Shown in pieces: positions 15,244 through 63,971 of a stretch of DNA of 64,000 nucleotides; the stretch's first letter is position 1; each line of letters starts with the position of its first letter. The DNA is from Thermoplasmata archaeon (GTDB taxonomy: Archaea; Thermoplasmatota; Thermoplasmata; GCA-020350865): positions 2,412,927 through 2,476,926 of the forward strand of contig CP070751.1 of NCBI GenBank assembly GCA_020348445.1, in the 5' to 3' direction. Below the pieces are notes generated by a model. The model was not told the origin of the DNA, did no database searches, and saw nothing but the letters and a program-made list of their open reading frames with translations. The position numbers and the translations under genes were made by a program.

Positions 15244-16014
15244 GTGGCTGGTTTGGATGTAGGGGCCATCACAATAAAGAGCGTGATCATGAAGGACGAC
15301 AAAATAGTTGGCTACAATCTTGCAAACACGGGTATGAGACCGGGAGAGGAGTCCAAGGGTCTTTTGGAAAAGAATCTTAATAAGCGCGGCCTTAATCTGG
15401 AAGACGTAAATTCGATAATTGCAACAGGTCACGGCAGACATTCTCTAGACTTTACAGAAATCAAAAAATCCGAAATCACATGCATTGCAAAGGGTGCTAA
15501 GAGACTGAATGACAAAAGCAGGATGGTGGTGGACATCGGGGGACAGGGTATCAGGGTCATCGAGCTAGACGAAAAAGGCGATGTGTCCAACTTCCTAACA
15601 AATGACAAATGCTCGGCAGGAACAGGATGTTTCCTTGATATGATGTCCTATGCCCTTCAGGTTGATTTGGATAAAATGGGCGAGCTCTCTCTAAATGCCT
15701 GTGAACCTAAGAAGCTTTCAACAACATGCAGCATATTTGCTGAGTCTGAGGTGGTCTCCCTTGTGGCCAGAGGCATGAAGAAGGAGGACATATTGGCAGG
15801 ACTCCACGATTCAGTTGCCAGGAAGGTTACAGGACTTGTCAAAACATTGGGTGTAAAAGGAGAGATCTTCTTGGCAGGTGGTGTTGCCAGAAATATCGGT
15901 GTGAGAAAGGCGCTGGAATCCAGATTAAATGGCAATATTTATGTTGCAAGATATCCTCAGATCGTGTGCGCATTGGGAGCTGCATTAATTGCCCAGGAGG
16001 AGGTGGGAAATTGA
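15244..16014 (+). CDS. BadF/HgdC-type ATPase, 2-hydroxyacyl-CoA dehydratase activase (copy 1)
   Basis: This is a 256-residue cytoplasmic activator of the ASKHA fold. In characterised relatives (HgdC, FldI, BadF/G) a homodimer holds one [4Fe-4S] cluster between subunits and uses ATP hydrolysis to send one very low-potential electron to a dehydratase or reductase. Visible signs are the GLDVGAITIKS phosphate loop at the N-terminus, VDIGGQG near 97-103, and both cluster Cys in their usual settings (NDKC at 123 and STTC at 162, the latter followed by SIFAESEV). AGGVARNIGV near the C-terminus is the adenosine motif. GTG 15244 is the only plausible start before the phosphate loop. Its partner is probably one of the 2-HAD proteins at 25526 or 38634. 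Confidence 0.9.
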   Translation: MAGLDVGAITIKSVIMKDDKIVGYNLANTGMRPGEESKGLLEKNLNKRGLNLEDVNSIIATGHGRHSLDFTEIKKSEITCIAKGAKRLNDKSRMVVDIGGQGIRVIELDEKGDVSNFLTNDKCSAGTGCFLDMMSYALQVDLDKMGELSLNACEPKKLSTTCSIFAESEVVSLVARGMKKEDILAGLHDSVARKVTGLVKTLGVKGEIFLAGGVARNIGVRKALESRLNGNIYVARYPQIVCALGAALIAQEEVGN

Positions 16015-16814
16015 CTATAACAGGGGGAGTGGATATAGGCTCCACTTATACCAAAGTCGTTGTTCTTAAGGACGACATTGTAGCAGGGTATGGAATACAA
16101 CCCACAGGAGCAAGCTCAGAAGGAGCGGCCCAGGCAGCAATGAAGGATGCCCTTGCCATGTCAGGCCTTTCCCTCGATGATATCCAATACATAGTATCAA
16201 CTGGTTACGGCAGAAGGGTAACTTCCCTCTCCAATGAAACCATTAGCGAGATTTCGGCTAATGGAAGGGGCTCCAAGTGGATAGGCGAGAAGCAGGACAT
16301 AAGGACCATCATCGACATAGGAGGGCAGGATACAAAGGTCATTGCACTGGACGATAATCTTGATATTCTCGATTTTAGAATGAACGACAAATGCGCAGCA
16401 GGAACAGGAAGGTTTTTAGAGGTTCTTGCCAACGAGCTCAAAGTCCCTTTGGATGATATGGGAGGGCTTTCTCTAAATGCTGAAAATCCCGTAGAGATAA
16501 CAACAACTTGTTTGGTTTTTGCTAAATCCGAGGTTGCCTCCCTCATCGCTAAAGGCGCAAAAAAAGAGGATATAATTGCAGGGATACACATAGCAATTGC
16601 GAGAAGGCTTATAGTGATGGCAAAGAAGGTGGGGATTAGGGAAGTTGTGTTTTTCGATGGGGGGCCCGCAAGAAATATAGGTATGAGAAAGGCCTTCGAG
16701 GACGAGCTTGGAATGAAGATATATGTAACAGAGCATCCCCAGATCGTTACAGCCACTGGGGCTGCGCTCATTGCCAAGGAAACTTTTGAGAGCAAAGGCG
16801 CGGGTTCTGCGTAG
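16011..16814 (+). CDS. BadF/HgdC-type ATPase, 2-hydroxyacyl-CoA dehydratase activase (copy 2)
   Basis: This is the second activase, 267 residues, paralogous to the gene just upstream. It has GVDIGSTYTK at residues 6-15, IDIGGQDTK around 101-109, cluster Cys at about 128 (NDKC.AGTGRF) and 167 (TTTC.VFAKSEV), and GGPARNIGM near the end. The start is TTG 16011: GGAGGTGGG lies just upstream and the TTGA overlaps the first activase's stop. A farther in-frame start at 15966 would add a non-homologous stretch. Two adjacent, clearly different activases suggest either two partner enzymes or a heterodimer; families studied so far mostly use homodimers. Both retain all cluster ligands, so neither looks decayed. 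Confidence 0.9.
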   Translation: MTITGGVDIGSTYTKVVVLKDDIVAGYGIQPTGASSEGAAQAAMKDALAMSGLSLDDIQYIVSTGYGRRVTSLSNETISEISANGRGSKWIGEKQDIRTIIDIGGQDTKVIALDDNLDILDFRMNDKCAAGTGRFLEVLANELKVPLDDMGGLSLNAENPVEITTTCLVFAKSEVASLIAKGAKKEDIIAGIHIAIARRLIVMAKKVGIREVVFFDGGPARNIGMRKAFEDELGMKIYVTEHPQIVTATGAALIAKETFESKGAGSA

Positions 16815-22155: not shown

Positions 22156-23580
22156 ATGGAAAACAGCGCTAAAAAGGAAGCTGAGCCGAAAGAGATCCAA
22201 GAAGATGAAAGCGAGAAAGCAAAGGCGCCAGCTGCCATAACCTCATTGGGGCTATTGCTCTTGGTCACGGGGATAGTATGGTTGGTAGGATCATTAATAG
22301 CTATTTACGGTCTTGTAACTGGTTCTGATGAGGTAATTGCCATCTTCAAAGATGATGTGTATATGGTTGCGTTGTACGGATTTACCGGTTTTTTCGCCCT
22401 CGCATTGATGAGCGTTTTTGCAGGGATATTTCTTTTTAAACTGAGAAATGATGCCTTGTCCATGGCAATTGGCGCATCTCTCATGGGTATAGGAATAGGC
22501 CTTGTAGCCCTCACATTGAGTGATCTTCTGCTCGTGGGCATAATAAGTGTGGTGGCATATACGATTTTGATTTTTTTTCTATTTTTGGCTCCAGTTATGA
22601 GGAGGAGTTTCTCAACTATTCACTTAAGGCATTTTCGAACAGCTGCCCAGTTCAGTTTGCTATTTATTATCAACGCAACCATAATCGGATCCTTGATAGT
22701 GGCTCCTTTTCTACCCATACTGCGTTTTCGGCATATGGCGGGGGGTAGATTCGGTGTTCCCCTATGCTCTATAGGTTCTTTGGCAAGATGTTTGAGCGGC
22801 AATTGGTGGGGTCTTTTCATTCCGATTGCGGTGGTGGGTGTTTTAATACTCATAGGAATTCTAATAGGTAGAGCTATGTGCGGATGGGTCTGTCCCATCG
22901 GCTTTCTTCAGGATATGGTTACCAAAGCCAGAGTAAAACTGCATTTGAGTCCAAAGGAGCCATCGCAGAAAAACCATGAAAGACTGACTGTAGCCAAATA
23001 TGCGATTCTATTTCTATTATTACTGGTGGCGCTGAGCATCGGAATCTCAGCAATAGGCCATACCGAGGCAGGGGATCTCTACAGATCACAGTACTCTGAG
23101 CTACCTTTGATAGAGTCAGGAGCGACACCCTGCGAAGCATGCCCAGCACCCATAATAGGATACTTTTTCCCTGATGACTTCTTAGTTCACAGCCTTGATG
23201 GTTCCTTCGTGATGACCACAGAAGCGGGATTGAGATTGTTCGTTTTGGGTGTCTTTATCGCAGGTGCTATCTTTATGGGGAGGTTCTTTTGCAGGTACCT
23301 TTGCCCATCAGGAGCCATGATATCCTTTTTCAACAAAGGGAGCATGCTTTCCCTTTACAAGGACCAGGGCAAGTGCACAAAATGCAACTACTGCGTCACA
23401 GCCTGCCCAATGAGGATACAGGATCTTAAGGACGAGGATGTCGATTATGAGATCAGGGACAGGGAATGCATATACTGCCTCGATTGTATAGATGCGTGTC
23501 CTGAGAAGGCATTGATATTGAAATTCCAAAACAAGGAGATTTACAAGGGAGGAAAGGAATGGTGGGAAAAAGTTTCATAG
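22156..23580 (+). CDS. NapH-like membrane polyferredoxin with extra N-terminal helices (copy 1)
   Basis: This is a 474-residue integral membrane iron-sulfur protein. About eight hydrophobic helices are visible; the first four (about 30-150) extend beyond the NapH core. The family's two CxxxCP loops are present, CGWVCPIGF near 241 and CRYLCPSGA near 378, plus CEACPAP near 323. Two ferredoxin-type [4Fe-4S] motifs follow at about 406-418 (CTKCNYCVTACPM) and 437-448 (CIYCLDCIDACP). NapH-like proteins pass electrons between quinol or membrane donors and soluble partners. It overlaps the 23559 gene by 22 bases and is two genes before a 2-HAD protein. A second copy at 37666 sits directly before another 2-HAD protein, so electron supply to that enzyme is the favoured role. 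Confidence 0.88.
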   Translation: MENSAKKEAEPKEIQEDESEKAKAPAAITSLGLLLLVTGIVWLVGSLIAIYGLVTGSDEVIAIFKDDVYMVALYGFTGFFALALMSVFAGIFLFKLRNDALSMAIGASLMGIGIGLVALTLSDLLLVGIISVVAYTILIFFLFLAPVMRRSFSTIHLRHFRTAAQFSLLFIINATIIGSLIVAPFLPILRFRHMAGGRFGVPLCSIGSLARCLSGNWWGLFIPIAVVGVLILIGILIGRAMCGWVCPIGFLQDMVTKARVKLHLSPKEPSQKNHERLTVAKYAILFLLLLVALSIGISAIGHTEAGDLYRSQYSELPLIESGATPCEACPAPIIGYFFPDDFLVHSLDGSFVMTTEAGLRLFVLGVFIAGAIFMGRFFCRYLCPSGAMISFFNKGSMLSLYKDQGKCTKCNYCVTACPMRIQDLKDEDVDYEIRDRECIYCLDCIDACPEKALILKFQNKEIYKGGKEWWEKVS

Positions 23581-25493: not shown

Positions 25494-25525
25494 TCCAAAA
25501 CAACATTAATACAGGAGTGTGCGAA

Positions 25526-26788
25526 ATGGCAACAGCAGATACCAAGAAAAAAGTGGACCCAAGCTTGGTCAGTCAAATGGCTCAAAAGGTGAATGAGATA
25601 GCAGATTCCAACGAGACTGTGAAGGGCATGGAGTATTTTTATGATTTCACAAAGATGATATACACATCCCGCGCCGATGAGATCACCAAGGAAAAGGAGG
25701 AAGGGAAGAAGGTAATAGGAAGCTTCTGCAACTTCGTCCCTGATGAACTCGTATTTGCAGCAGGTGCCATTCCAATTCGCCACTGCGCTGGTTTTCAGGA
25801 CACGATTTTGCCTGCAGAAGAGATATTGCCAAGAAACTTCTGTCCTCTCATAAAATCAGCTTTAGGTTTTTTCATTATGGGAGACCCGCTATACGAGCAG
25901 GCCGATGTTGTCGTGGTGCCCACAACCTGCGACGGCAAGAAGAAGTTTTGCGAGATCATAGGCGAGGAAAAATCCACCTGGGTTATGGAGGTCCCCCACA
26001 CCACGGAGACCTCCCAGGCAAGGGAACTTTGGCTCAAGGAGATCAAACTTCTTAAAAAGAATCTTGAGAAGTTGACAGGCAACAGGATCACAAGCAAATC
26101 CCTGAGAAAGGCAATAGAACTTACAAACAAAAAACGCAGCCTTATAAGAAGGCTATATGAGGTCAGAAAAAAGGATTCACCCCCGATATGGGGAAGGGAT
26201 GCGCTCCTTGTAACGAGCATCTCGCATTTTGACAACCTGAACAGATGGATAGAAAAGACAGAGGAGCTTTGCAGTGAATTGGAAGCAAAAGAAACTGGCG
26301 TATGCCCCGAAACTGCCCCAAGAATCATGCTCACAGGAAGTCCTGTCTTCATGCCAACTTGGAAGGTACCCATGTTAATCGAGGACTCAGGGGGAATCAT
26401 AGTGACCGACGACATATGTACAGGCTCAAAGGGTTTTTGGGACCCAATCGAAGTGCCTCATTGGACAATGGAGGATATGCTTCTCTCCATTGCAGACAGG
26501 TACCTCATGAACACGTGCGCGTGCTTCACACCCAATACAGCGAGGCTCATCAGATTGCAGGGATTTGTCGAGGATTTCAATGTTCAGGGTGTGTTCTATC
26601 ACATCCTTCAGGCATGCCACATTTACGGCGTGGAGGCAAGGAGAATCGAAAGCGCTCTGAAAGCTGATGGTATACCAATGCTCACAATCGAGACAGATTA
26701 CAGTCAAGAGGATGTTGAGCAGATAAGAACAAGGGTTGAGGCATTTTTAGAGATGATCTCTGCGAGGAGGAAGGGACAGACAGTCTAA
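25526..26788 (+). CDS. 2-hydroxyacyl-CoA dehydratase (HgdB/FldB/BcrC) family protein, copy 1
   Basis: This is a 420-residue cytoplasmic protein of the family that includes 2-hydroxyacyl-CoA dehydratases, benzoyl-CoA reductase subunits and double-cubane cluster proteins, all reduced by ATP-dependent activases. Cys in conserved settings: C68 (GSFC.FVPDEL), C106 (FCPLIKSA), C135 (TTCDGKKK), C298 (DDICTGS), C331/C333 (NTCACFTPN) and C364 (QACHIYG). AGAIPIRHCAG near 80 is the usual substrate-side loop. ATG 25526 has AGGAG nine bases upstream; the GTG at 25517 is less likely. A second subunit-like gene lies 12 kb away, not adjacent as in classical two-subunit dehydratases, so a homodimer or a distinct enzyme is possible. 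Substrate unknown. Confidence 0.88.
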   Translation: MATADTKKKVDPSLVSQMAQKVNEIADSNETVKGMEYFYDFTKMIYTSRADEITKEKEEGKKVIGSFCNFVPDELVFAAGAIPIRHCAGFQDTILPAEEILPRNFCPLIKSALGFFIMGDPLYEQADVVVVPTTCDGKKKFCEIIGEEKSTWVMEVPHTTETSQARELWLKEIKLLKKNLEKLTGNRITSKSLRKAIELTNKKRSLIRRLYEVRKKDSPPIWGRDALLVTSISHFDNLNRWIEKTEELCSELEAKETGVCPETAPRIMLTGSPVFMPTWKVPMLIEDSGGIIVTDDICTGSKGFWDPIEVPHWTMEDMLLSIADRYLMNTCACFTPNTARLIRLQGFVEDFNVQGVFYHILQACHIYGVEARRIESALKADGIPMLTIETDYSQEDVEQIRTRVEAFLEMISARRKGQTV

Positions 26789-34305: not shown

Positions 34306-35529
34306 ATGAGTTTTATTGCAACAAAAACACAAGCCTTGCTTTTGGTAATTATAATATGCATAACCTTATTTCCGTCGGGGAATTCCAATGAAGCAATGGA
34401 TGTTACCACCTTGAACCTTCTTTGGGAGAACAAAGAGGGGCACAACGCCACGCTGTGGTCTGTCAGGTGGTCACCCGATGACAGCATGATCTCAGCCACC
34501 TATTTTGACAACACAACCACGATATTCAACGCCCAAAACGGCTCCATTATAACGAAAATGGGGGCTCATCCGAAACCCCATGGAACCCGATGTGATGGTG
34601 AGCAAGATTGCGAAATTGAAGAGCATCTACCAACAAGATCCAGCGCCTGGTCCCCAGATGGCAAATATCTGGCAACTGGAGGGGACAACAGGCTCATAAT
34701 CATATATGCAAGCATAAACTGGTCTGTGGTAAAGATATTAGAGGGACATGAGCAAAGCGTCCTCACCTTGGAGTGGTCTCCTGGGGGAACAATGATCGCA
34801 TCCGGCTCTGGAACAGATAAGGTGGCCATTCACAATGAAGACAAAAAAGAGAATATAGTTAAGATCTGGGATTTCTCCACCGGCTTGGTTATTGCTGAGC
34901 TCGAAGGACATCAGGATGGTGTTATGAACGTGAAATGGTCTCCCAACGGCTCCCAGATCGCCTCTGCATCAGATGATAAAAAAATTATGCTGTGGAGCAC
35001 CTCCGACTGGACGAGAACCATGACCCTGGATGACCACGTCTTGGGTGTGCTTGATGTGGATTGGTCTCCAAATGGTACCTTTCTTGTGTCAGGAAGCAGA
35101 GATTACAAAGTCAGGTTGTGGGATGCCCAAACTGGTGAATCCATTGATAGATGGACAGAACCCAACTGCATTCGTTCTGTTCATTGGCATCCAGATAAAG
35201 GGCTCATCGCAAATTCAGGCGTTGGGGAGACCATGCTTAAAATCCGCAATGCTACAACAGGCACAGTGATCAAGACATTTACAGAATCTGCCGATTCAAA
35301 AAGCGTGGTCATGTCCTCACGATGGTCACACGACGGATTGAAACTGGCTGCTGGGGCAGGTTTGGAGCACGCGTTGAGGGTATACTCCTTTGGTATATCA
35401 AGTGAAAAGGAGTCCAAAGAGATTCCATCGTGGGTTCCAGGCACCGTATTGTTCATGGCCATCACCGCTATTGTTGTAGTTTTGATTATGATTCCAGTAT
35501 TGGGAAAATTACAGGAGAGTGGAAGGTGA
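34306..35529 (+). CDS. Exported WD40 beta-propeller with C-terminal membrane helix
   Basis: This is a 407-residue protein with signal peptide (about 1-27). WD40 blades at about 40-365 show the standard pattern W SPDG..IA.GS.D..V.IWD, for example HEQSVLTLEWSPGG, GHQDGVMNVKWSPNG and SRDYKVRLWDAQTG. One membrane helix (about 375-397) ends the protein. The repeats are typical of cytoplasmic WD40 proteins, yet the signal peptide and C-terminal anchor put the propeller outside the cell, which is less common. It starts one base after the PQQ gene and is followed by an FG-GAP gene one base after its own stop. A protein-binding role is inferred. Confidence 0.88.
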   Translation: MSFIATKTQALLLVIIICITLFPSGNSNEAMDVTTLNLLWENKEGHNATLWSVRWSPDDSMISATYFDNTTTIFNAQNGSIITKMGAHPKPHGTRCDGEQDCEIEEHLPTRSSAWSPDGKYLATGGDNRLIIIYASINWSVVKILEGHEQSVLTLEWSPGGTMIASGSGTDKVAIHNEDKKENIVKIWDFSTGLVIAELEGHQDGVMNVKWSPNGSQIASASDDKKIMLWSTSDWTRTMTLDDHVLGVLDVDWSPNGTFLVSGSRDYKVRLWDAQTGESIDRWTEPNCIRSVHWHPDKGLIANSGVGETMLKIRNATTGTVIKTFTESADSKSVVMSSRWSHDGLKLAAGAGLEHALRVYSFGISSEKESKEIPSWVPGTVLFMAITAIVVVLIMIPVLGKLQESGR

Positions 35530-35530
35530 A

Positions 35531-36898
35531 ATGGTATTGAGCAACCTTATAAGAAGGGCGAGCGTAATTTTTCTTTCGTTGATTCTTCTTATGATGTTCT
35601 TTCCTTACACGTTAACCTCAAAAGCTGATATCGATTCCAATTATCTAGGAAACGGCCCTGGTAGGTTCAACTCATTGAAGGCCCAGGATATCGATTCAGA
35701 CGGTAACGTGGAGGTCGTTTTCGGTAACTATGAAGGTTATCTCAACATAATCGAAAGTAGGGACGGCAGTTATTTTGAAAAATGGCGTTCTGACTCCTTG
35801 GGAACGAGGTTATGGGGTCTTTGTATTGCTGATTGTGATTCAGACGGCACAAATGAGATAATAGCAGGAAATGGCGAGGGGGAGTTCTATGTTTTTGATG
35901 CAGTATCAAACGAGTTAGAGTGGAAAAAGGAGGATCTAGGACGTGATGCCCATGGCATTGCTGTGGGCAACATAGACTCTGATGAAAATTTGGAGATAGT
36001 TGTGGGAACAGGCTATAAAACAGACATACCCTTGGGAAATGTGTATGTATTCGACGGTAAAACCCATGAACTTGAGGCAGAATTGGGTCCCATTTCTTCA
36101 AGGCATCGCGGAGTTGCAATCGATGATGTGGATTTGGACGGTGTAAATGAAATAATCTTTGGAAGCGGAGTATCCTTGGGAGAGACCCCAGGTGAAGGTT
36201 ACATTTACATATACGGTTTTGATGGCGAAGATTACATCCAGGAATGGAAAAGCGAGGATCTTGATGGTGATGTCATAGGTCTTGTGATCTACGATCTTGA
36301 GGGCGATGGTACTTTAGAAATTATCGCAGGAAACGGCTACAGGTACAACCAGGGTTATTGCTTTATATTCAGATATGTAGGAGAAGGAAGCGATTCAGGT
36401 TCCGGAACTCCTGCCATTTATCAACAGGTATGGGAAAGCGAGGATATAGGACCCAAGGCTTATGGACTGGATGTTGGGGATATCGACGATGATGGTATAA
36501 CAGAGATCGTTGTGGGCAACCAACCTGGCTATATTTGGATCTTCGATGCAAATACCCACGAGGTTGAGTGGAAAAGTCCGCTTTTAGGCACCGATATTCT
36601 AGGCATAGAAATCGCGGATGTTGATTTGGATGGTGAGGTCGAGATCATCGCCTCCCAGGGGGGCTACATTGGAAAAGCTGACTGGACATCAGCCTATACT
36701 GCCCCGCATATATACATAATAAATGGTAGAACCCATGAGATCGAGACCAAATTGGGCGAGTACGATTATTTGGAAATCCTATTTACGGTGGTGGTGATAG
36801 TACTTATTGTAATTACCTTGGTTCACCTCAATCGGGTGCTAAGGATCAAAAAAACAATCCGGAAAACCAAAGTTGATACAAAAAGAGGAATCAAATGA
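35531..36898 (+). CDS. Exported FG-GAP/VCBS-repeat beta-propeller with C-terminal membrane helix
   Basis: This is a 455-residue protein. The ATG at 35531 is preceded by GGAAGGTGA, which overlaps the previous stop; the GTG at 35519 is rejected because it lies inside that site. Signal peptide about 8-30. FG-GAP/VCBS-type blades run at about 35-405 with repeated DIDSDGN.EVVFGN, DCDSDGTNEIIAGNGEG and DIDDDGITEIVVGN, in which the Asp-rich loops are expected to bind Ca2+ as in integrin alpha propellers. One membrane helix (about 412-435) and a strongly basic tail (KKTIRKTKVDTKRG) follow. It is the third consecutive propeller in this operon, upstream of the redox genes. Confidence 0.86.
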   Translation: MVLSNLIRRASVIFLSLILLMMFFPYTLTSKADIDSNYLGNGPGRFNSLKAQDIDSDGNVEVVFGNYEGYLNIIESRDGSYFEKWRSDSLGTRLWGLCIADCDSDGTNEIIAGNGEGEFYVFDAVSNELEWKKEDLGRDAHGIAVGNIDSDENLEIVVGTGYKTDIPLGNVYVFDGKTHELEAELGPISSRHRGVAIDDVDLDGVNEIIFGSGVSLGETPGEGYIYIYGFDGEDYIQEWKSEDLDGDVIGLVIYDLEGDGTLEIIAGNGYRYNQGYCFIFRYVGEGSDSGSGTPAIYQQVWESEDIGPKAYGLDVGDIDDDGITEIVVGNQPGYIWIFDANTHEVEWKSPLLGTDILGIEIADVDLDGEVEIIASQGGYIGKADWTSAYTAPHIYIINGRTHEIETKLGEYDYLEILFTVVVIVLIVITLVHLNRVLRIKKTIRKTKVDTKRGIK

Positions 36899-36908
36899 GG
36901 TATAAAAG

Positions 36909-37661
36909 ATGCTACTGGAACTTGTGGTTGCGGCATTAATCGGGATATCCTTTGGAAATGCATGGGCCTGCATTCTCATGTCCTTTGGAACCTCGGCAGA
37001 GGAACGGAGTGTGGGTAAGTGGTTCATTGCAGGCAGGTTCTTAGGATTGATTCTTCTTGGATCTGTGATTTCCCTATTGAGGTTTGCAGCCCAGGACGTG
37101 ATGCCCATTGTTATTTTGATATTCGGAGTATCAACTCTCCTTTTCGGTTTGTTGATTTTAATTCGGCATTTGATACAAAGCCGATATTATTTAGAGGATA
37201 AAAAAGGCATTTCTGATAATGTTCTGTTGTCTTTAATTTCGTTTTTCATGGTTATACCCAAAGACAGAAAATGCAAAGGCAATCCAAATGGACCCCATGG
37301 GCACAAAAACAAAGGCAGTCATCATAGAAAACAGGGACAATGTAAAAGACACAAGAACTTCACAGAAAAATCTGGATTTGCACTTGGTGTGCTCAGGGGA
37401 GCGACCCCCTGTGCCAAGGTTATAGTATTGACTCCTCTTCTGGTGGCCTTTGGCTTCCCAGGTTCTCTGCCAATTATACTTGTCTATGCCTCTGCCTCCA
37501 CGATCTATCCTGTAATTGGATATCTTTCAGCTGATGTACTTTCAAAATTCGATAAATATCAGTTACATTTCAAAATACTAGGTGCATTCATACTCATTGC
37601 CATGGGTTTGTATTTCATAGTCAAGGTTGTTATGTGGAACTCCACACACATTGGAATGTAA
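36909..37661 (+). CDS. CcdA/DsbD-like membrane protein with His-rich loop
   Basis: This 250-residue protein has about six hydrophobic helices in two groups of three. The first helix holds a Cys (GNAWACILMSFG) and the fourth another (GVLRGATPCAKVIV), the two positions where CcdA/DsbD proteins carry their redox Cys. Between the halves, at about residues 120-150, is a hydrophilic loop with many His and Lys plus one Cys (PHGHKNKGSHH...), a possible metal-binding site. It is distantly related to the 14415 protein. It lies between the FG-GAP gene and polyferredoxin copy 2, with small gaps, and is probably co-transcribed. Thiol electron transfer across the membrane or metal export are the two main possibilities. 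Confidence 0.72.
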   Translation: MLLELVVAALIGISFGNAWACILMSFGTSAEERSVGKWFIAGRFLGLILLGSVISLLRFAAQDVMPIVILIFGVSTLLFGLLILIRHLIQSRYYLEDKKGISDNVLLSLISFFMVIPKDRKCKGNPNGPHGHKNKGSHHRKQGQCKRHKNFTEKSGFALGVLRGATPCAKVIVLTPLLVAFGFPGSLPIILVYASASTIYPVIGYLSADVLSKFDKYQLHFKILGAFILIAMGLYFIVKVVMWNSTHIGM

Positions 37662-37665
37662 TTTG

Positions 37666-38637
37666 GTGATAAAAGAAAGTGTGAATCATGTGAGAAGACC
37701 CAAGATAAGTGAGTGGCGTTTAATCGTGAACATAGCCTGGCTTTTCGTGATAAACAGCGTGCTCTTCGGAGTTTTTTATTTCAGCACACACCCTTTGACT
37801 AAGAACATATTCTGGCCTAATTTGTCAACAAGGTTCATCGTGAACAATCCCACAACTTCATTTTTATACCAGATCCAGTCACGGTTTGCTAGTGGACAGG
37901 AGACCTATTATGTGGATCTGCTTGTTCCTTTCATGATATTTATTTTATTGGTTGTGATTTTAGGAAGGGTCTGGTGCGGGTGGCTTTGCCCCATAGGTTT
38001 TATACAGAACATTCTGCTTAGGATTAGAAAAGCACTGGGTATTCCATACAAGGATGTGTCCCCCAAGGCCACAATGGTGCTCAACCAGATGGGGTATGTA
38101 CTGATATTTTTGATAGCCTTTTTGTCATTTGCTGTGGGAGTAACTTTCCTGGGAATGCACAATTTTTGGACAAAATCCGAGCTCCCCTTCGAGAGTGTGG
38201 CACCGCCGCGACCAATTTGGATCTTCCTTCAGCAGCTCGTGGGTCTGGAATCCTGGGATTCTGTCATACCTCTCTCTTCTATAATCGTGGCGATCTTGGT
38301 GATCGTTCTATCCTTTAAAATCAGGCATTTCTGGTGCAGAATATGCCCTGCAGGGGCCCTCATGTCTCTTTTAAACCGCAGGGCCCTTGTGAGCATCCAA
38401 AAGGATGGCTCAAAATGCACAAAGTGCAGAATCTGTCTTAGAGCCTGCCCAATGGACATCGAGGAAATATACGAGGAGAAGGAAAAGGACAACGTGACCC
38501 ACGAGACCTGTATCCACTGTTACAGATGCGTGGAGCTGTGTCCCGAAGATGGCTGCTTGAGTGTGACATTCATGAACAAGACTATTGCTACTTCGAAGTA
38601 TCCAAGGGCGCCAAAGCAAAAAGAGGTGGTTGGATGA
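37666..38637 (+). CDS. NapH-like membrane polyferredoxin (copy 2)
   Basis: This is a membrane iron-sulfur protein of about 323 residues. There are about four main helices: near 18-38, 85-105, 145-170 and 205-222. CGWLCPIGF lies near 104 and CRICPAGA near 223, the two conserved loops. Two [4Fe-4S] ferredoxin motifs follow at about 251-263 (CTKCRICLRACPM) and 282-292 (CIHCYRCVELC). It is the short, standard NapH form without the N-terminal extension of copy 1. The start is uncertain: GTG 37666 is used; GTG 37681 and 37690 are also possible. Its stop overlaps the 2-HAD start by four bases (ATGA), the strongest sign here that the two proteins work together. Confidence 0.87.
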   Translation: MIKESVNHVRRPKISEWRLIVNIAWLFVINSVLFGVFYFSTHPLTKNIFWPNLSTRFIVNNPTTSFLYQIQSRFASGQETYYVDLLVPFMIFILLVVILGRVWCGWLCPIGFIQNILLRIRKALGIPYKDVSPKATMVLNQMGYVLIFLIAFLSFAVGVTFLGMHNFWTKSELPFESVAPPRPIWIFLQQLVGLESWDSVIPLSSIIVAILVIVLSFKIRHFWCRICPAGALMSLLNRRALVSIQKDGSKCTKCRICLRACPMDIEEIYEEKEKDNVTHETCIHCYRCVELCPEDGCLSVTFMNKTIATSKYPRAPKQKEVVG

Positions 38638-40013
38638 ATTTAATTTCAAAAAAGAAAGGGGAAAAGAACGTACAGGACGAGAAACTTAATCCATTATCGA
38701 GCCTAAAAGCCTCTGAGAAAAGGTATGTAAGTGACAAGATTCTGAACAATTTGGGAATCAAAAAGGAGCAGACCCTCTCAGCTATGAAGAAATTTATAGA
38801 GGACGAAATCAAGAAACTACAATCCATGTCCCAAAGAGCACAGTCCATGGCCTATTTTGACGATATTGCCAGGTATTTCGGAACAAGGGCCGAGGAAGTT
38901 GCGAAGTTCAAGGATGCAGGAGGACATGTGGTTGGTTCTCTTTGCATGTTCGTGCCAAACGAAATTATTGCAGCTTCAGGAGCGCTCCCCTTAAGACTGG
39001 GCAGCGGCTTTCATGAAACAGCAGGTCCTGCAAATGTGATTTTGGGTGATGCAGGATTATGTCCTTTGGTTAAATCCACATTGGGCATGAGAATGGCTGC
39101 ATGCTCTCCTTATTTTGAGATGTGTGATTTGCTTGTAGCCCCGACTCCCTGCGATGCCAAATTGAAGCTGGGGGAAATACTCCAGGATTTCGTACCTGTA
39201 TTGATGCTTAATCTCCCTCGGATAAAGAGCGGAGCTGTGAACCGCAGGCAGTGGGCAGAGGAGATCGGGATTCTCATGGACAAACTGGAGCTCCTCACAG
39301 GTAAAAAGATTAAAAGAAAGGACATGAAAGTAAGTATAGAAAAGTACCAGAGGGCCTATTCTGCTTACAGGGAACTTATGAATATAAGACGCGAGGCTGA
39401 TGTGCTCTGGGGGAGAGACGCTCTTTTGGTAGCCCAATTATCATATTATGACGATATCGAAAGGTGGACACAGAACGTGCATAAGCTGGTTGCTGAGTTA
39501 AAACAGATGAAAGAGGAGGGAAAAACAATAATTTCGGATGAAGCTCCAAGAATCATGCTTGCTGGCTCCCCAATCATCTGGCCAAACTGGAAAATCCCAG
39601 ATATAATCGAGGAAAGTGATGCACTGATTGTGGCAGATGAGCTATGCTCTGCAACAAGGGCACTTTCAAATCCAGTTGTTGTTGATGAGAACACAAAAAG
39701 AGGCATGATAGATGCAGTTATCGAGCGCTATCTATTTCCATGTACATGTCCTTGCTTTTCCCCAAATCTTGAAAGGGATGACAACCTCTTAAACAGGATC
39801 AGGGACTATAAAGTGCAAGGTGTTATATTCCATGTTTTGAAGGGGTGCCATCTAAATGCACTTGATGCAACAAGAATCAAAGGGATTTTAGAGGAAGAGG
39901 GAATTCCAATGTTCACTATAGAAAGCGAGTATGTTATGGGCGACTATCAGCAGATAAAGCTTAGGCTTGAAGCGTTCTTGGAGATGGTGAGGGCGCAGAT
40001 TGACATAATTTAA
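38634..40013 (+). CDS. 2-hydroxyacyl-CoA dehydratase (HgdB/FldB/BcrC) family protein, copy 2
   Basis: This is a 459-residue protein paralogous to the 25526 product, with a ~35-residue longer N-terminus of charged helix. Cys in the same settings as copy 1: C104 (GSLCMFVP), C143 (LCPLVKS), C173 (TPCDAK), C338 (DELCSAT), C370/C372/C374 (PCTCPCFSPN) and C405 (KGCHLNA). ASGALPLRLGSGF near 115 is the substrate-side loop. The start at ATG 38634 overlaps the polyferredoxin stop by four bases and has GAGGTGG before it. The enzyme should be reduced by an HgdC-type activase; two lie at 15244 and 16011. The polyferredoxin coupling, rather than an acyl-CoA ligase or transferase neighbour, argues against ordinary amino-acid fermentation. 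Substrate unknown. Confidence 0.88.
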   Translation: MNLISKKKGEKNVQDEKLNPLSSLKASEKRYVSDKILNNLGIKKEQTLSAMKKFIEDEIKKLQSMSQRAQSMAYFDDIARYFGTRAEEVAKFKDAGGHVVGSLCMFVPNEIIAASGALPLRLGSGFHETAGPANVILGDAGLCPLVKSTLGMRMAACSPYFEMCDLLVAPTPCDAKLKLGEILQDFVPVLMLNLPRIKSGAVNRRQWAEEIGILMDKLELLTGKKIKRKDMKVSIEKYQRAYSAYRELMNIRREADVLWGRDALLVAQLSYYDDIERWTQNVHKLVAELKQMKEEGKTIISDEAPRIMLAGSPIIWPNWKIPDIIEESDALIVADELCSATRALSNPVVVDENTKRGMIDAVIERYLFPCTCPCFSPNLERDDNLLNRIRDYKVQGVIFHVLKGCHLNALDATRIKGILEEEGIPMFTIESEYVMGDYQQIKLRLEAFLEMVRAQIDII

Positions 40014-44820: not shown

Positions 44821-44858
44821 CCATGCATCTAATGGCCATTTTTAGTTAGATAGCCCTC

Positions 44859-44874
44859 CAACAAATTATTTATA
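44859..44874 (+). promoter_or_regulatory. Promoter element shared with the next gene (TATA region of 44931)
   Basis: CAACAAATTATTTATA is identical base for base to 47082-47097. It lies 72 bases before this gene's ATG and 73 before the other's. The TTATTTATA part is a plausible TATA box. Confidence 0.5.
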
Positions 44875-44930
44875 CCACCCAGTTCATACTAATTGTATCA
44901 AAACAAGGAAATATGGAGTGGGAGTTTGTT

Positions 44931-57294: not shown

Positions 57295-57774
57295 TTACCC
57301 CTTTCTTTTCTTAAAACCTGCCATCCTGGGACAGCTGTCTTTCAAATTGCAATCCTCGCATCCATATTTTTTTGTAATGACAGGTAGCATAATGAATCCC
57401 ATTATTATGAAGATGGAAAATAGGACAAGAAGTGTGATAGAGAATTCATAGTAGAGAAGGTATATCCCAGCTAAAACGGGGAGGATCCATGATGGAAAGA
57501 CAATACCAATATGCCTTCTGAACGTATCATTGAATTTCTTTGAATCTCTCTCTTTAAAAAGCTTGGCTGCTACCCTAGCATATCCACTTGGACATTTTGG
57601 ATTATCAAAATGAGGGCAATGGGCGCAAATGAATCTCATGAACCAAAGGGTGCTGAAAATGCAATACAGGACATAGACCAAAAAAAACAACCAACCCAAA
57701 AATAACATGATAACGGCCCCGAGCGCATATGTGGAAAATGTGGGTAAGTTATGCAATACCTTATTTGCTCCCAT
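57295..57774 (-). CDS. Small Cys-rich integral membrane protein, family not recognised
   Basis: This is a 159-residue protein with about four hydrophobic helices (about 17-45 as a long or double segment, 92-108 and 111-131). Two Cys-rich segments lie outside the membrane: C50, C53 and C61 (CAHCPHFDNPKC) and C139, C142 and C148 (CEDCNLKDSCP). The six Cys, each group followed by Pro, suggest a bound [4Fe-4S] cluster or metal site rather than disulfides alone. GGAGGAAAG precedes the ATG. It lies 93 bases after the NifB homologue on the same strand and could share its transcript. I cannot assign a function. Confidence 0.7.
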   Translation of the reverse strand: MGANKVLHNLPTFSTYALGAVIMLFLGWLFFLVYVLYCIFSTLWFMRFICAHCPHFDNPKCPSGYARVAAKLFKERDSKKFNDTFRRHIGIVFPSWILPVLAGIYLLYYEFSITLLVLFSIFIIMGFIMLPVITKKYGCEDCNLKDSCPRMAGFKKRKG

Positions 57775-57867: not shown

Positions 57868-58707
57868 TTATATCTTATCTTTAGAATCTAACCCAGGAAT
57901 CCCACATGCATCTGCCCTACACTGTTTACATGCTCTGAATATGGGAATTATGCTCTCGCATGCCTCTCGGGAAGCGATAAGCTCATCACAGGTTGGAGCC
58001 CTAAGATGTTTGAATTCTCCTAAAGGAATCAAGGGCATAATATTCATTATAAAGACACCCCGTTTTTGAATTTCATAGGCGATATCCTTTACATGTTCCA
58101 GATTTATTTCAGGAATAAGCACGGTGTTGACCTTGGTCAAGAATCCCAATTCAGAGGCAATTTCCAGGCCTTCAAGCTGCTTTGATACAAGAACCTCAGC
58201 CCCTTCAATGCCACTTAGTATGTTACCCTCCACTATAGAATATGAAGAGATTTTCGAGGCGACTTCTGGATCAACTGCATTTATTGTTAGTGTAAGGGAT
58301 TTCACATTAAGTTCTTTTAAGATCCTGGCTTTCTCGGGTAAAAGAAGACCGTTTGTACAAACGCATAATTTTAAGTCCGGGAAATTCTCCCCAACTAGCC
58401 TCAGGGTCTCTAATGTCTCTTGATTGTAAAGAGGTTCACCAGGACCTGAGATACCCACAACTGCCATAGAAGGATTCTTTTCCATTGCCTTCTCTACAGC
58501 CAAAATTGCTTCTTCTGGCTTTATCAATTCATAAGCCAATCCAGGGCGCGAACTATGATAATAAGGTGAGACCTTCCTGTCACAATATTTACAGGCTATG
58601 TTGCATTTTGGTGCTACGGGAAGGTGGATTCTCCCAATCTTGTGATGCGCCTGTGTACTGTAACACGGATGTGATTGAGAAAGCTCTATTATATCACCAT
58701 TTAACAA
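57868..58707 (-). CDS. nifB: NifB-like radical SAM protein (nitrogenase cofactor precursor synthase homologue)
   Basis: This 279-residue protein has the NifB core from end to end. It shows HPCYS at 13-17 and AHHKIGRIHLPVAPKC leading to the radical-SAM CxxxCxxC (C35, C39, C42). It also has SRPG at about 53-56, GPGEPL near 107, CTNGL, TINAVDPEV, a QLEGL helix, KVNTVLIPEIN, NIMPLIPLG and the C-terminal CKQCRADACG (C260, C263). Known NifB proteins use these Cys to bind the SAM cluster and the two [4Fe-4S] substrate clusters that are fused with carbide to make the NifB cofactor. The start is TTG 58707 with AAGGAG upstream. It has no NifX-like extension. No nifH, D, K, E or N is in the window, so its product here may serve another enzyme. 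Confidence 0.85.
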   Translation of the reverse strand: MLNGDIIELSQSHPCYSTQAHHKIGRIHLPVAPKCNIACKYCDRKVSPYYHSSRPGLAYELIKPEEAILAVEKAMEKNPSMAVVGISGPGEPLYNQETLETLRLVGENFPDLKLCVCTNGLLLPEKARILKELNVKSLTLTINAVDPEVASKISSYSIVEGNILSGIEGAEVLVSKQLEGLEIASELGFLTKVNTVLIPEINLEHVKDIAYEIQKRGVFIMNIMPLIPLGEFKHLRAPTCDELIASREACESIIPIFRACKQCRADACGIPGLDSKDKI

Positions 58708-58791: not shown

Positions 58792-60207
58792 TCAGCCCTC
58801 TTTTCTTTTTTTCATAGCCCTATTTTTTAATTCTATTGAGATCATTATCAATACCAATGATAAGACTGCAATCCAAATAACAGTAATTATGATCCTGTCC
58901 CTTACAACCCAGCATTTACTTGATCGATTACCATCCCCTGAGGTTGTATCATTCCCGTTGTCTGGTGGGGGTTCACTTTCACCATCTTCGCCATCTTCGC
59001 CATCTTCACCATCCTCTCCATCTCCACCATCTCCATCATTTCCTCCATTTCCTCCGTTTCCGTTGTCAGGTTCGGGAGGTTTTGAGGAATTAAAGGCATA
59101 AATTGTTTTTAATGAATTGCCAACAAAAATATATCCCTCTGATATGGCCGCAGACGACAGTATTTCACCCCCAGTGATATAAGACCATATCAAATCGCCG
59201 TTTGTCGCATTCAGTGCATAAAAAATTCCTTGGGATTCACCTATAAAGATTATTTCATCAGCAATTGAGGGCGAAGCATCTACAACATCATTTGTTTCAA
59301 ACTCCCATTTCAGTTGCCCTGTTTCTGCATCAAGAGCCCTAACCTTGTTATCCCTTGCTCCAAAGAACACCTTACCATACGCAATTGTGGCTGTGGAGAC
59401 TGTTTCTGCCCCAAGTGTGAAATTCCAAATCTCCCTACCTGTATATAGGTCGAGACAGTACATCTTTTGAGCATAATTGCCAAAGTAAACCTTATTCTCA
59501 AAAATGGACGGGGAAGCCACTATGAAGCCCTTTGTTTCAAACTCCCAAATGACTTCAGCTGTGTGTATGTTGTAACTCCGAAGAATATTATCACATCCCC
59601 CTACTAGGACCATGTCATCAGATACAGCTGCAGAACCTAAAATGTAAGATCCTGCAGTTGAATTCCATTCCTTTTCGCCGGATGATGCATTTAATGCATA
59701 TAACATACCGTCATGGGAACCTATGAAAACCTTGGCATTCCCAAAGGTGGGAGAGCCTTCGATATCTCCATTAGTTGAAAAGTTCCAGAGTTCAGATCCT
59801 GTGTTCGCGTCCAATGCATATAATCTTCCATTAGTGGATCCAATATATAGGATTTCATCAACTACCAAAGGGGAGGATTTTACAGTTCCTGTGATTTGGT
59901 GTTTCCATGATAAATTACCAGTTTTCATCTCTAATGCATATACCCATCCATCATCAGAGCCAACATAGACTGTCCCGTTTACTACCACAGGTGAGGATTT
60001 CACAGCCCCAGTTGTGTTGTATGTCCAAAATAACTCGGTTTCATTTCTCAATAAACTGGATGTATAACCTGTATTCTGTGAATCATAACAGAATTGTGGC
60101 CAATCATCCTGTCCAACTGTGTTATAAACTGTAAAACTCATGGTTGAAAAGGACATGAGAATGATAATCGTGGATAATACATTAAATGTCCGCACTCCGC
60201 TTTTCAT
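58792..60207 (-). CDS. Membrane-anchored PQQ-like (BamB-type) propeller with Asp/Glu/Gly linker
   Basis: This is a 471-residue protein. Signal peptide about 8-28. Seven or more PQQ-type blades (about 35-370) follow the pattern SSPVVVNGTVYVGSDDGWVYALEMKTG..W. A low-complexity linker of GDGED repeats (about 382-410), one membrane helix (about 443-463) and a basic end (KNRAMKKRKEG) follow. ATG 60207 is chosen; a farther start at 60231 would overlap the TATA box at 60232-60239. That box lies 25-32 bases before this ATG, so the mRNA is probably leaderless. The blades resemble those of the 32598 protein. It is a single gene on the minus strand after the ABC permease. Confidence 0.85.
   Translation of the reverse strand: MKSGVRTFNVLSTIIILMSFSTMSFTVYNTVGQDDWPQFCYDSQNTGYTSSLLRNETELFWTYNTTGAVKSSPVVVNGTVYVGSDDGWVYALEMKTGNLSWKHQITGTVKSSPLVVDEILYIGSTNGRLYALDANTGSELWNFSTNGDIEGSPTFGNAKVFIGSHDGMLYALNASSGEKEWNSTAGSYILGSAAVSDDMVLVGGCDNILRSYNIHTAEVIWEFETKGFIVASPSIFENKVYFGNYAQKMYCLDLYTGREIWNFTLGAETVSTATIAYGKVFFGARDNKVRALDAETGQLKWEFETNDVVDASPSIADEIIFIGESQGIFYALNATNGDLIWSYITGGEILSSAAISEGYIFVGNSLKTIYAFNSSKPPEPDNGNGGNGGNDGDGGDGEDGEDGEDGEDGESEPPPDNGNDTTSGDGNRSSKCWVVRDRIIITVIWIAVLSLVLIMISIELKNRAMKKRKEG
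58980..59062 (-). repeat. Low-complexity GAAGATGGC-type repeat in the propeller linker
   Basis: Near-perfect 9-base units (GAAGATGGC and variants) encode the Gly-Glu-Asp linker before the membrane helix. Such tracts can change length by slippage; the frame is intact here. Confidence 0.65.
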
Positions 60208-60231
60208 CGATACTATAGATAGAAATAACAA

Positions 60232-60266: not shown

Positions 60267-63200
60267 TCATTCAGATGTCCTTATCGCATTGGAAACTTCC
60301 ATTTTTGAGGCCTTTAATATGGGTATCAGGGCAGAAATCATTGCCACGATGTACGATATCAATAATATCCCTGCGACATACAGCCAAGGCCAACTACCAA
60401 AATCAATATTCATCCTTAAAAGATAAACACTGGAGGCAATAATCCCACTGAGTGTACCTATGATGATTCCTGATAAAATCACATATGAATTCTCCAAGAA
60501 AAGAGATTTCATGAGGGTCCCTTTTGAAAATCCTATGGCCCTGAGAATACCCATTTCCCTTCTTCTCTCAAGGGTGTTTCTTGCGGCGACAATGCCAAAG
60601 CCTAGGGTGCCTATTATAAGGCCAAACAATAGAATGACCTGGAATATGGAAATGTAGGTGTTTTCAATGAGAATATTCTCCACAACCACTGACTCAACTG
60701 AATATGCGTCAAAACCATATGCGGAAAGTGCACTCTCAAGTTCAGTCATCTGCGGTTTTAAATTGCTGGCCTCTGATTTGAAAAGGAACAAATCGTACCC
60801 GTTATCAGTGGGATACAGAACATCGAAATTCTCGTCCCAGATTATCAGACTCCCTTGAAATATCGAGTTTCCTATAATACCCACGATTTTCAAGGATACG
60901 GTATTTCCCATCTCGTCCACAATCGTAATTGTGGAGCCCAAATCAAGTCCAAGGATCCATACTATTGTATTATAATCCCCAATTGCGGGAATTTCATCGT
61001 CTTCCTTTGATTCCTGAAGAAGTAACCAGGGATTATCCTCACCATCCCCCAGATCCTCATGATTGATGAAAACGAATGAATTGTCCCAAAAAAAGGATTT
61101 GTTGGCTCCTATTAATCTCGGACTTGCTGCCCGATTTAAATTAGAGCATGTGCCCCCCAAATCGCCTTTGGTTTTGAACTGCGTGATTTCAAGCTCATTA
61201 AACACATTCGATGAAATCCCGCTTTTTTGTCTTGAGCCTGAGTCTGCAAGGTCAGCGAATATGGGATTCACGCCCTCACCCATTATCTGATAACCTCCCC
61301 CGCTTTCTGAAACAGCCTTTTCAACATCGTAAATTGCTCCTTGGAGGTTTATGGTCAGGCTCACCAAAACGAACAATGTCAAGGAGAAAAGAAATACAGA
61401 GAACATAGTTCTTTTTGGTCTTCTGGCAGCGTTCTTAATGGAGAATTGCAAAAGCCATCTCTTTCCATGTTGTATTGGTATCTCTTTTTCTTCCTTACCA
61501 TATTCCCACGTTACTTTCACAAGAAAGTGGTGAAAGACAAGTATAAATCCACAAAGCAGCATAAATCCGGAAATAAAGAACAGCTCGATTACAGGCACTA
61601 TATCTGCAAAATAAGAGGTAAGAATTAGTGTATAAATCACCAAGGCCAAACCTGCCCAAAATTCGATATTTTTTTTATGTCTTATCCCTATAAATCCCCG
61701 TGCAGAAAAAATTAGAATCACAGGCCCCAAACCAAGGGTCACAAATCCTAGTTCGCTTTGAAATCCATTCCCAATAAGAACGGGCAAAACCAGTATTATC
61801 AAACCTATAATCCCAAAAAAGGATGGTAAGAAGATGCTCTTTTTCTCCTCCCTTGCAGACAATCCATACCTAAGAGCTCCCGCCACGGTCCTCCTTCCCT
61901 CATACCAAAGTGCAAGGAACATAGTAAAAATAGAGATAAGAATCCCCAGAGAGAAACCTACCACCAGACTATCCAATGTATAATAGAATCTCACCTGTGA
62001 ACCCTCCATTATGGACGACCAAAAAGTATTCATTCCAGTAATAAGAAAAACTCCAAATAAAAGACCTAAAATCACACCAAAGACTCCACCTACAATTGAG
62101 AGAATTGTACCCTCCACAAGAAATATATGATTTATTGATCGTTTTCTGAAACCCAGGGCCCTTAAAGTCGCATTCTCTGTCATCCTGGATTCTATTCTCA
62201 AGGTAATTAAAAGTACGATAAGTACGGCTGCCGCGATAATACAGGCTGCGCTGAAGGCGAGGAACATCTGCGTGAAGATATCGATTCCTTGGGCTGATTC
62301 AAGGGCATCCAGCTTCACTGCTTTTATCGAGATAGAGGCCTCGTCTGCACCAATGAAATTGTTTAATATATCCTCCACTTGTTGTGTCAATTCTGATAAA
62401 CTCGAGTCCTGCTTAGGTATCATTCTGACCTGGGTAATATTGCCTATATCTGTGTTCCACAGATTTGTTCCCTGTGCAAAACCAATAAATGCCTTTGGTG
62501 TCCCCTCGTAATCCTGCCAATATCTCTCATCGTCATTTGTAATTAAATCCAGGTTCATGGGAAAAGGCGGGTCCCAGTCGAAGGCGCTCATCTTACCTTC
62601 TATTCCTGGAAAGGATGGCATAAGCATTCTGTCATCGGCCTTTCCTTGCATATCTACGATATATTTTACAGTGAAGTTCTTTGTAAGATACCTAATGTTG
62701 TAGAACTCGTCCATAACAGAGTAGTTCATGGCCACTGTGTCCTCAACATCTGCCTGTAATCTTTCTGCCACCCAATTATTTATAATAATCTCATCTTCCG
62801 CCAATGAACCCTCGATTTCCTGGGTGCTTCCATTTAAGGTGAACAAACCGAATTCATTATCGAGATTTGGATCAAAGGCTGTTATAGTGGAGTAGGGCAC
62901 ATACCTATCACCCAGGGATAGTGTATTCCAAAAGTAGGTTAAGATTTGTGATGTTGCCTTCAATGTGGTAATAGAGGGATGGTTGCTTATAAGTTCAAGG
63001 TAATCATATGAAAAAAAGATGTCAGCAGACTCCAGTGCCAAGTAATTCTTACCAGTATTTTGAAGTAACCTGAATCCTGCCTCTTCATAACCAATTGCAT
63101 CATCGAGGGCGCTTCTTAGAGTTTTAGAAACATCATTGCACAGTTTTTCACCTTCTCTTTCATCTCCTGTATTAGAGACGAGAATCATGTTCATGGAATC

Positions 63201-63971
63201 CTCTGAATTGAAAAGCAATTGAAGGCTCTCGATATTCACATATATGTTTTGTGGTGTATTTCTGTTGGCATTTAACTGGAACCTTCCCATACCCTCAGAG
63301 GAAACGACATCTTTTACCTCCAACTGAACCTTGAGGTTGGTGTTCTTTTGTTCACCCAGGAAAATTGCCTCAAATACCTGATCCAATCTGGCAAAGGAAA
63401 TGTTGATCTTTTCCCCTTTTCCCACACCTATTTCGGATGCTACATCCTCGTTAATGAAAACTTCATTTATACCCAGGGAGAAATCAAGTTGTATCCCCTC
63501 TACTGATAACATGGAGCCAAATTCAAAAAAGGCTTCGTTGATACCGATTAAGTTGGCTTTTGTTGTTCTCGCCCCTGTACTTGGGCTTTCAGCAATTCCC
63601 TTCATGTAAATTATGGGTGCAAGGTGATCCACATCATCCATGAGGTCATTGTTGTCCATCAAGGAATCAAGGATAGAGCCAGAAAACAGTCTGTCTGATG
63701 TGATTATCTCATCCACTTCACCCAGATTATCGTAAGCTGCGTCAGTTATACTAGCTCTGAGAGAATCCCCTGAGATGAGGGAACCGGTAATTACCAAGGT
63801 ACTTATGCAGGTTGCAGCTATCAAAGCCAAATTTGTTTTGGCATGGCCCCTAAGAGACCTTATGGCTATTGTGACTACCTGCGGTTGTAAAATTCCAAGG
63901 CCAAGGACTCCAGCCACCGTAATCAGAAATAATACAAATAATATCAGGGCACCAATACCAAGGCCGCTCAT
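60267..63971 (-). CDS. Large ABC-transporter permease with two FtsX/MacB-type units
   Basis: This is a 1234-residue membrane protein. Helices near 8-30 and 48-68 flank a basic connector (RSLRGHAKT). A large extracytoplasmic MacB-type domain extends to about 545. A first FtsX core follows (about 560-680, with LRIESRMTENATLRALGFRKRSI), then further helices to about 810. A second connector (KNAARRPKRTM, near 850) and second extracytoplasmic domain come next, then a C-terminal FtsX core (about 1110-1230) with NTLERRREMGILRAIGFSKGTL, the coupling sequence that touches the ATPase. This architecture suits export or extraction of lipids, lipoproteins or peptides. The partner ATPase is not in the window and may lie just beyond 64000. 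AGGTGAT precedes the ATG. Confidence 0.88.
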   Translation of the reverse strand: MSGLGIGALILFVLFLITVAGVLGLGILQPQVVTIAIRSLRGHAKTNLALIAATCISTLVITGSLISGDSLRASITDAAYDNLGEVDEIITSDRLFSGSILDSLMDNNDLMDDVDHLAPIIYMKGIAESPSTGARTTKANLIGINEAFFEFGSMLSVEGIQLDFSLGINEVFINEDVASEIGVGKGEKINISFARLDQVFEAIFLGEQKNTNLKVQLEVKDVVSSEGMGRFQLNANRNTPQNIYVNIESLQLLFNSEDSMNMILVSNTGDEREGEKLCNDVSKTLRSALDDAIGYEEAGFRLLQNTGKNYLALESADIFFSYDYLELISNHPSITTLKATSQILTYFWNTLSLGDRYVPYSTITAFDPNLDNEFGLFTLNGSTQEIEGSLAEDEIIINNWVAERLQADVEDTVAMNYSVMDEFYNIRYLTKNFTVKYIVDMQGKADDRMLMPSFPGIEGKMSAFDWDPPFPMNLDLITNDDERYWQDYEGTPKAFIGFAQGTNLWNTDIGNITQVRMIPKQDSSLSELTQQVEDILNNFIGADEASISIKAVKLDALESAQGIDIFTQMFLAFSAACIIAAAVLIVLLITLRIESRMTENATLRALGFRKRSINHIFLVEGTILSIVGGVFGVILGLLFGVFLITGMNTFWSSIMEGSQVRFYYTLDSLVVGFSLGILISIFTMFLALWYEGRRTVAGALRYGLSAREEKKSIFLPSFFGIIGLIILVLPVLIGNGFQSELGFVTLGLGPVILIFSARGFIGIRHKKNIEFWAGLALVIYTLILTSYFADIVPVIELFFISGFMLLCGFILVFHHFLVKVTWEYGKEEKEIPIQHGKRWLLQFSIKNAARRPKRTMFSVFLFSLTLFVLVSLTINLQGAIYDVEKAVSESGGGYQIMGEGVNPIFADLADSGSRQKSGISSNVFNELEITQFKTKGDLGGTCSNLNRAASPRLIGANKSFFWDNSFVFINHEDLGDGEDNPWLLLQESKEDDEIPAIGDYNTIVWILGLDLGSTITIVDEMGNTVSLKIVGIIGNSIFQGSLIIWDENFDVLYPTDNGYDLFLFKSEASNLKPQMTELESALSAYGFDAYSVESVVVENILIENTYISIFQVILLFGLIIGTLGFGIVAARNTLERRREMGILRAIGFSKGTLMKSLFLENSYVILSGIIIGTLSGIIASSVYLLRMNIDFGSWPWLYVAGILLISYIVAMISALIPILKASKMEVSNAIRTSE

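Follow-up and report, generated by a model that had tools for sequence, protein, structure and literature searches.

What does NifB do in an archaeon in which no nitrogenase gene stands near it? The question is raised by a nifB homologue in the stretch of 64,000 nucleotides analysed here (hereafter the window), from a Thermoplasmata genome; as far as is known, NifB serves mainly nitrogenase and the activation of methyl-CoM reductase (MCR; PMC12176620). The original prediction, made from the DNA letters, identified a NifB homologue at 57868-58707, and this proved to be a real open reading frame whose product shows full-length homology to NifB proteins of solved structure, the top PDB matches being M. 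thermautotrophicus NifB (7bi7, 7jma and 7jmb; E 1.6e-84). The TIGR01290 nifB model aligns with residues 5-276 of the protein (E 5.5e-81) at 272.5 bits, short of the 343.65 bits set as its equivalog cut-off. Compared to the sister species, nifB differs by 0.23, 0.17 and 0.56 at the first, second and third codon positions, and this predominance of third-position differences indicates purifying selection. Below, G000 denotes the window genome, G001 that of the sister species and L078 a contig of a lake MAG (VGTL01000016.1).

Absence of the known users of NifB

The window genome consists of one contig of 5,156,203 bases, and the sister genome is likewise a single contig. Their stated completeness is 82% and 81%, respectively; since the one-contig sister has so similar a value, these low figures probably reflect the divergence of marker genes rather than missing sequence. 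Neither genome contained PF00148 proteins (NifD/K/E/N, CfbD and relatives), PF02579 proteins (NifX/NafY), McrC/Mmp7 or MCR alpha, and for NifH nothing was found in either beyond short P-loop matches; control methanogen genomes gave strong full-length matches in the same searches. Thus, neither main user of the [8Fe-9S-C] cluster is present. These results agree with the original prediction that nothing else of nitrogen fixation lies within 64 kb, there being no nif gene in the window, and the search of the full genome for nifH/D/K/E/N that it had proposed found none. Its suggestion that the gene might belong to a dispersed nif set fails, given the absence of PF00148, NifH and PF02579 from both genomes. 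An ordinary dispersed nifB of a diazotroph, or a NifB of an MCR activation system, would be a known reason for having the gene, but both are refuted by the searches of the window genome and its sister, and we leave them only a vestigial probability. A nifB gene alone is an unsafe basis for calling nitrogen fixation or methanogenesis.

Pairing of NifB with a DCCP-like protein

Two blocks of genes in the window are considered here (Table 1). The first runs on the minus strand from 63971 down to 57295 in the order permease-PQQ-NifB-CysMP, and the second on the plus strand, at 34306-40013, in the order WD40-FG-GAP-TM36-NapH-HAD_B. The original prediction described the Cys-rich membrane protein, CysMP, as the only close neighbour of nifB, which was too narrow, since the PQQ propeller and the FtsX permease lie on its other side; all three flanking genes are syntenic in the sister genome, and the propeller and permease head the gene cluster in other families. 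The NapH-type polyferredoxin of the second block is likely the electron donor. A relationship of TM36 to CcdA/DsbD found no support, as hhalign against the window's DsbD_2 protein gave a probability of 0.9%.

Table 1. Position, strand and character of the window genes discussed in the text
Feature	Coordinates	Strand	Remarks
NifB, stand-alone radical-SAM domain, 279 aa	57868..58707	-	no NifX domain; TTG start
CysMP, 159-aa membrane protein, about 3 TM	57295..57774	-	next gene after nifB
PQQ/BamB-like beta-propeller	58792..60231	-	upstream of nifB; syntenic in G001
FtsX-like permease	60267..63971	-	head of nifB block
WD40 propeller	34306..35529	+	first gene of second block
FG-GAP repeat protein	35519..36898	+	second block
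TM36, polytopic membrane protein	36909..37661	+	two invariant Cys (C21, C168); no Pfam family
NapH-type membrane polyferredoxin	37627..38637	+	Fer4_5 + 4Fe-4S dicluster
HAD_B, 2-HAD family (HGD-D), closest to DCCP	38634..40013	+	below DCCP cut-off
ASKHA ATPase 1 (acyl-CoA dehydratase activase family)	15244..16014	+	TIGR00241
ASKHA ATPase 2 (acyl-CoA dehydratase activase family)	15966..16814	+	61% identical to L078 homologue
HAD_A, true DCCP by NCBIfam cut-off (NF040772)	25517..26788	+	paralogue
NapH-type polyferredoxin paired with HAD_A	22156..23580	+	

HAD_B matches PF06050 with an E value of 5.6e-90, and its closest relative by sequence is the double-cubane cluster protein, DCCP (PDB 7yyl/6eno; E about 1e-69). 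Against the DCCP model NF040772 it scores 325.4 bits and its relatives 302-344, below the cut-off of 350. Its predicted structure (mean pLDDT 71) finds 7yyl as the best fold match (E 3e-27, TM about 0.8), with 6eno also among the top ones. Seven DCCP-aligned cysteines are kept (C76, C114, C144, C309, C341, C343 and C374; DCCP cysteines are numbered as in the alignment used here); all seven positions are occupied in the window's HAD_B, one is Ser in L078, and most members carry extra cysteines. In the tree, the HAD_B proteins form one clade (97/99), apart from both DCCP and HAD_A. The system thus resembles DCCP and its activator (6eno, 7yyl) in fold, in the seven cysteines and in the presence of ASKHA activators in the window, whose two ATPases score 241-247 bits against TIGR00241, but differs in having its own clade below the model cut-off, extra cysteines, a NapH-type partner in the membrane and a nifB gene linked to it. 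The function of the DCCP type is stated as unknown (PMC11971306).

The window also contains a second 2-HAD module at 22156-26788, consisting of a NapH-type protein, an exported protein and HAD_A, with the two ASKHA ATPases (15244-16814) 9 kb upstream. The NapH-HAD_A pair recurs in the sister genome, and in none of the genomes seen was HAD_A adjacent to nifB.

The order of genes elsewhere connects nifB directly to HAD_B. Four genomes, three from another Thermoplasmata family and the fourth from a second such family, have nifB immediately after HAD_B; the NapH-type ferredoxin and the propeller genes lie upstream of this pair, and CysMP lies downstream of it. The 5.7-kb contig of G015, from another family, reads FG-GAP end, TM36, NapH, HAD_B, NifB, CysMP, whereas G110, from a third family, has the fuller series FtsX permease, PQQ, WD40, FG-GAP, TM36, NapH, HAD_B, NifB, CysMP, PQQ. 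G122 follows the G110 order up to NifB, whose gene is truncated by the contig end, and CysMP opens the next contig; a short contig of G128 reads HAD_B-NifB-CysMP-PQQ. In L078, whose NifB is 50.5% identical to that of the window, the order is TM36-NapH-HAD_B-ATPase1-ATPase2-Kelch-CysMP-NifB, so that the homologue of ATPase 1 adjoins HAD_B and is near nifB, and HAD_B and nifB lie within about 3 kb. Seen against these, the window arrangement resembles a G110 cluster from which the central part has been displaced. In one pattern scan of GTDB contigs with HAD_B, all the records returned were euryarchaeal/Thermoplasmata MAGs.

The original prediction had pointed to 2-HAD proteins about 18 kb from nifB. 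We dropped this distance as evidence because nifB is separated from HAD_B by about 0.72 Mb in the sister genome; the hint survives through adjacency elsewhere and through co-occurrence. In a survey of 400 Thermoplasmata genomes, with HAD_B counted above 600 bits, NifB was found in 97, McrC in 96 and HAD_B in 11. The NifB-bearing genomes contained McrC in 85 cases out of 97, HAD_B in 10 and neither in 2 (G171 and G273, drafts from methanogen families), while HAD_B and McrC occurred together in 0 of the 400, and no HAD_B genome contained PF00148 or McrC/Mmp7. Among the 304 McrC-negative genomes, the NifB/HAD_B table (both, HAD_B only, NifB only, neither) was 10/1/2/291, with a Fisher p of 4.5e-16 that overstates independence, as the genomes are related and the positives come from four families (plus L078). 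Only one HAD_B genome lacks NifB, and it is a draft of 86% completeness; in family f18 the two genes co-occur although they are unlinked. A NifX/NafY carrier was rejected as a constant part of the system: PF02579 is absent from G000, G001 and most HAD_B genomes, and present in G075 and G122.

The co-occurrence of nifB with 2-HAD genes, a check that the original prediction had proposed, was thus found in 10 genomes across the 400, and its idea that this NifB supplies a complex iron-sulfur cluster to another enzyme gains support from the 2-HAD gene adjoining nifB in four genomes of two families. A functional pairing of NifB with HAD_B is well supported, and a transfer of the cluster between them is inferred. 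The class Thermoplasmata contains many NifB-bearing methanogens, and the gene might be left over from an ancestor that was methanogenic or diazotrophic, either functionless or with an unrelated function; however, purifying selection, the position of nifB next to HAD_B in two other families and the co-occurrence even where the genes are unlinked make this very improbable.

Two NifB lineages and their cluster ligands

The placement of this NifB in a tree, also suggested at the outset, revealed that the NifBs of HAD_B genomes belong to two lineages. Lineage A (window, sister and L078) groups beside M. thermautotrophicus NifB, its nearest characterised relative, and lineage B, from the other HAD_B genomes, beside a clade comprising NifBs from methanogens and bacteria. 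A single clade for all of them was rejected with an AU p of 0.014, a moderate value in a tree with long branches. Since HAD_B forms one clade, the pairing has outlived a replacement of NifB or a separate gain, which speaks for a functional requirement and against co-inheritance by chance.

Ligand assignments were taken from M. acetivorans (Ma) NifB, in which K1 is bound by C30, C63, C129 and His43, and K2 by C264, C274 and C277 (PMC6053413, PMC7145814). In the window NifB, the cysteines of the SAM-cluster CxxxCxxC motif (C35, C39 and C42) are all present, the K1 ligands C15 (the HPC cysteine), His28 (= Ma His43) and C115 (= Ma C129) are kept, and so are all the K2 ligands (C250/C260/C263 = Ma C264/C274/C277). 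The K1 set is nevertheless incomplete, as the position of Ma Cys63 is occupied by Tyr, SPYYHSSRPG being found where YDCxNExRPG was expected, and two of the three K1 cysteines remain. The same loss is seen in the sister genome (YFHTSRPG) and L078 (FYHSLRPG). The original argument that the protein keeps its ligands and is hence likely active is therefore incomplete: the SAM-cluster cysteines, HPC and C250/C260/C263 are there, but this lineage has lost one K1 cysteine. The three lineage-A NifBs further share a His at RPG-3 (His51 in the window), where M. thermautotrophicus NifB has Cys, and two new invariant cysteines in LCVCTNG and RAD[AS]C (C117 and C268 in the window). The window protein resembles M. 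thermautotrophicus NifB as a stand-alone radical-SAM protein with the SAM-cluster cysteines, the K1 His and CRADA, but differs in the replaced K1 Cys, the His at RPG-3, the two extra invariant cysteines and a host without MCR or nitrogenase. The lineage-B NifBs tested score 356-360 bits, which exceeds the equivalog cut-off, and none of the ten cluster ligands is missing from them.

Judged by its residues, the changed K1 site with its newly conserved Cys and His suggests that the product of the window NifB may differ. The lineage-A NifB might now be a maturase for a different 8Fe cluster, such as a fused K-type one, destined for HAD_B and devoid of carbide. The loss of Ma Cys63, the His at RPG-3, the two gained cysteines and a score well under the NifB cut-off are consistent with such a change, whereas the retention of the SAM-cluster, His43 and all K2 ligands argues against it; moreover, M. 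thermautotrophicus NifB is also off-pattern, with no equivalent of Ma C264, and yet is reported to be functional in vitro in a passage of PMC5715403 citing Fay et al. 2015. We consider this change of product improbable.

A possible destination for the NifB-made cluster

The reading that we favour, to which we give an even chance, is that NifB serves not nitrogenase but a DCCP-like reductase, driven by ATP and fed from the membrane, for which it builds a complex Fe-S cluster. From the homologies, the gene content and order and the co-occurrence we infer the following route, the identity of the cluster, each transfer and the substrate included. NifB would join two [4Fe-4S] units to form an 8Fe cluster, which would contain carbide in the lineage with the full set of ligands; this cluster would pass to HAD_B, perhaps via the membrane protein CysMP; low-potential electrons from the NapH-type ferredoxin would be pushed onto the cluster by the two ASKHA ATPases using ATP; and HAD_B would then reduce a small substrate. 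A precedent is the MCR activation complex (McrC, Mmp7; PMC12176620), an ATP-driven machine with a NifB-type [8Fe-9S-C] cluster outside the nitrogenase family, whereas here McrC/Mmp7 are absent and a member of the 2-HAD family is the candidate for carrying the cluster.

The strongest counter-evidence comes, by analogy, from BzdN, a relative of HAD_B. E. coli is not known to have NifB. When BzdN is produced in E. coli, its [8Fe-9S] double cubane is assembled (PMC11971306). A plain double cubane therefore requires no NifB, which, if it serves HAD_B, must add something, most simply carbide. The class I benzoyl-CoA reductase BzdNO shares with HAD_B its superfamily and its ATP-driven mode, with the [8Fe-9S] cluster in BzdN, but is a CoA-ester enzyme whose cluster forms in E. 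coli (PMC11971306), and HAD_B is much closer to DCCP. Also against the favoured reading are the missing K1 Cys in the window lineage and the separation of nifB from HAD_B in f18.

The BzdN result favours a pathway shared by NifB and HAD_B in which the NifB cluster resides in CysMP, the ATPases or an unseen scaffold, and HAD_B holds an ordinary, NifB-independent double cubane. CysMP is Cys-rich (motifs CxxCx7C and CxxCx5C) and, as the co-occurrence check suggested by the original prediction showed in part, travels with NifB in several genomes; in f18, on the other hand, it stands beside a different radical-SAM protein. A paralogue of CysMP in G000 (L064, C1:3771684-3772142) lies among HypD, AIRS-type (HypE-like) and [NiFe]-hydrogenase genes, a hint of metallocentre assembly, which may thus be a general role of the CysMP family. 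No Pfam/NCBIfam family and no PDB fold matched CysMP, and its weak AF2 model (pLDDT 65) presents no recognisable cluster-binding fold; furthermore, the tightest match to NifB is HAD_B. We therefore regard a destination other than HAD_B as rather unlikely, though less so than a changed product. The f18 location and the hydrogenase-locus paralogue also weaken CysMP as a strict NifB partner.

Carbide-containing 8Fe clusters have been reported in the nitrogenase family and the MCR activation complex (PMC12176620). HAD_B is unrelated in sequence to nitrogenase and McrC/Mmp7, and we propose tentatively, with slightly less than even confidence, that DCCP-like reductases of non-methanogenic, non-diazotrophic archaea are a third family of users of NifB-made carbide clusters, possibly with a new cluster variant in the window lineage. 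If so, a user within the DCCP/2-HAD superfamily would connect two ATP-driven systems that work at low potential and supply a genetic context for the DCCP type; it would also be relevant to the proposed origin of the [8Fe-9S-C] cluster together with MCR activation (PMC12176620). NifB and DCCP are both already known, and what is new is probably this third setting for NifB: a literature search, largely of papers outside subscription journals, found none joining NifB with 2-hydroxyacyl-CoA dehydratase, and the titles, abstracts and passages retrieved with NifB and 'double-cubane' contain no description of a NifB-HAD_B pairing.

Several further observations concern the surroundings of these genes. 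In f18 (L058, L059 and L061 = G162, G025 and G075), the genes after CysMP are one for a radical-SAM/SPASM protein, which comes nearest to the heme b synthase/NirJ models yet scores below the cut-offs for these, and another two that are conserved. More distant homologues of CysMP (63-80 bits) occur in NifB-less genomes of two families (G060, G144, G035, G083, G090 and G129; L065-L070). A cobalt/nickel-type ECF transporter is encoded at 2522-4998 of the window, with CbiM (4324-4998) and an ABC ATPase (2522-3394) identified by Pfam and a CbiQ-like gene between them assigned by eye. Finally, the large exported proteins at 7789-14407, 30329-32416, 41341-47048 and 54291-57218 have a common C-terminal domain with a GWN(L/M)IS(V/L)PLIQ motif, and most of the window's proteins with this domain also carry YHAGKSRPWLHWH; a similar domain adjoins nifB in the sister genome (L010) and is found near nifB in G025 (L008).
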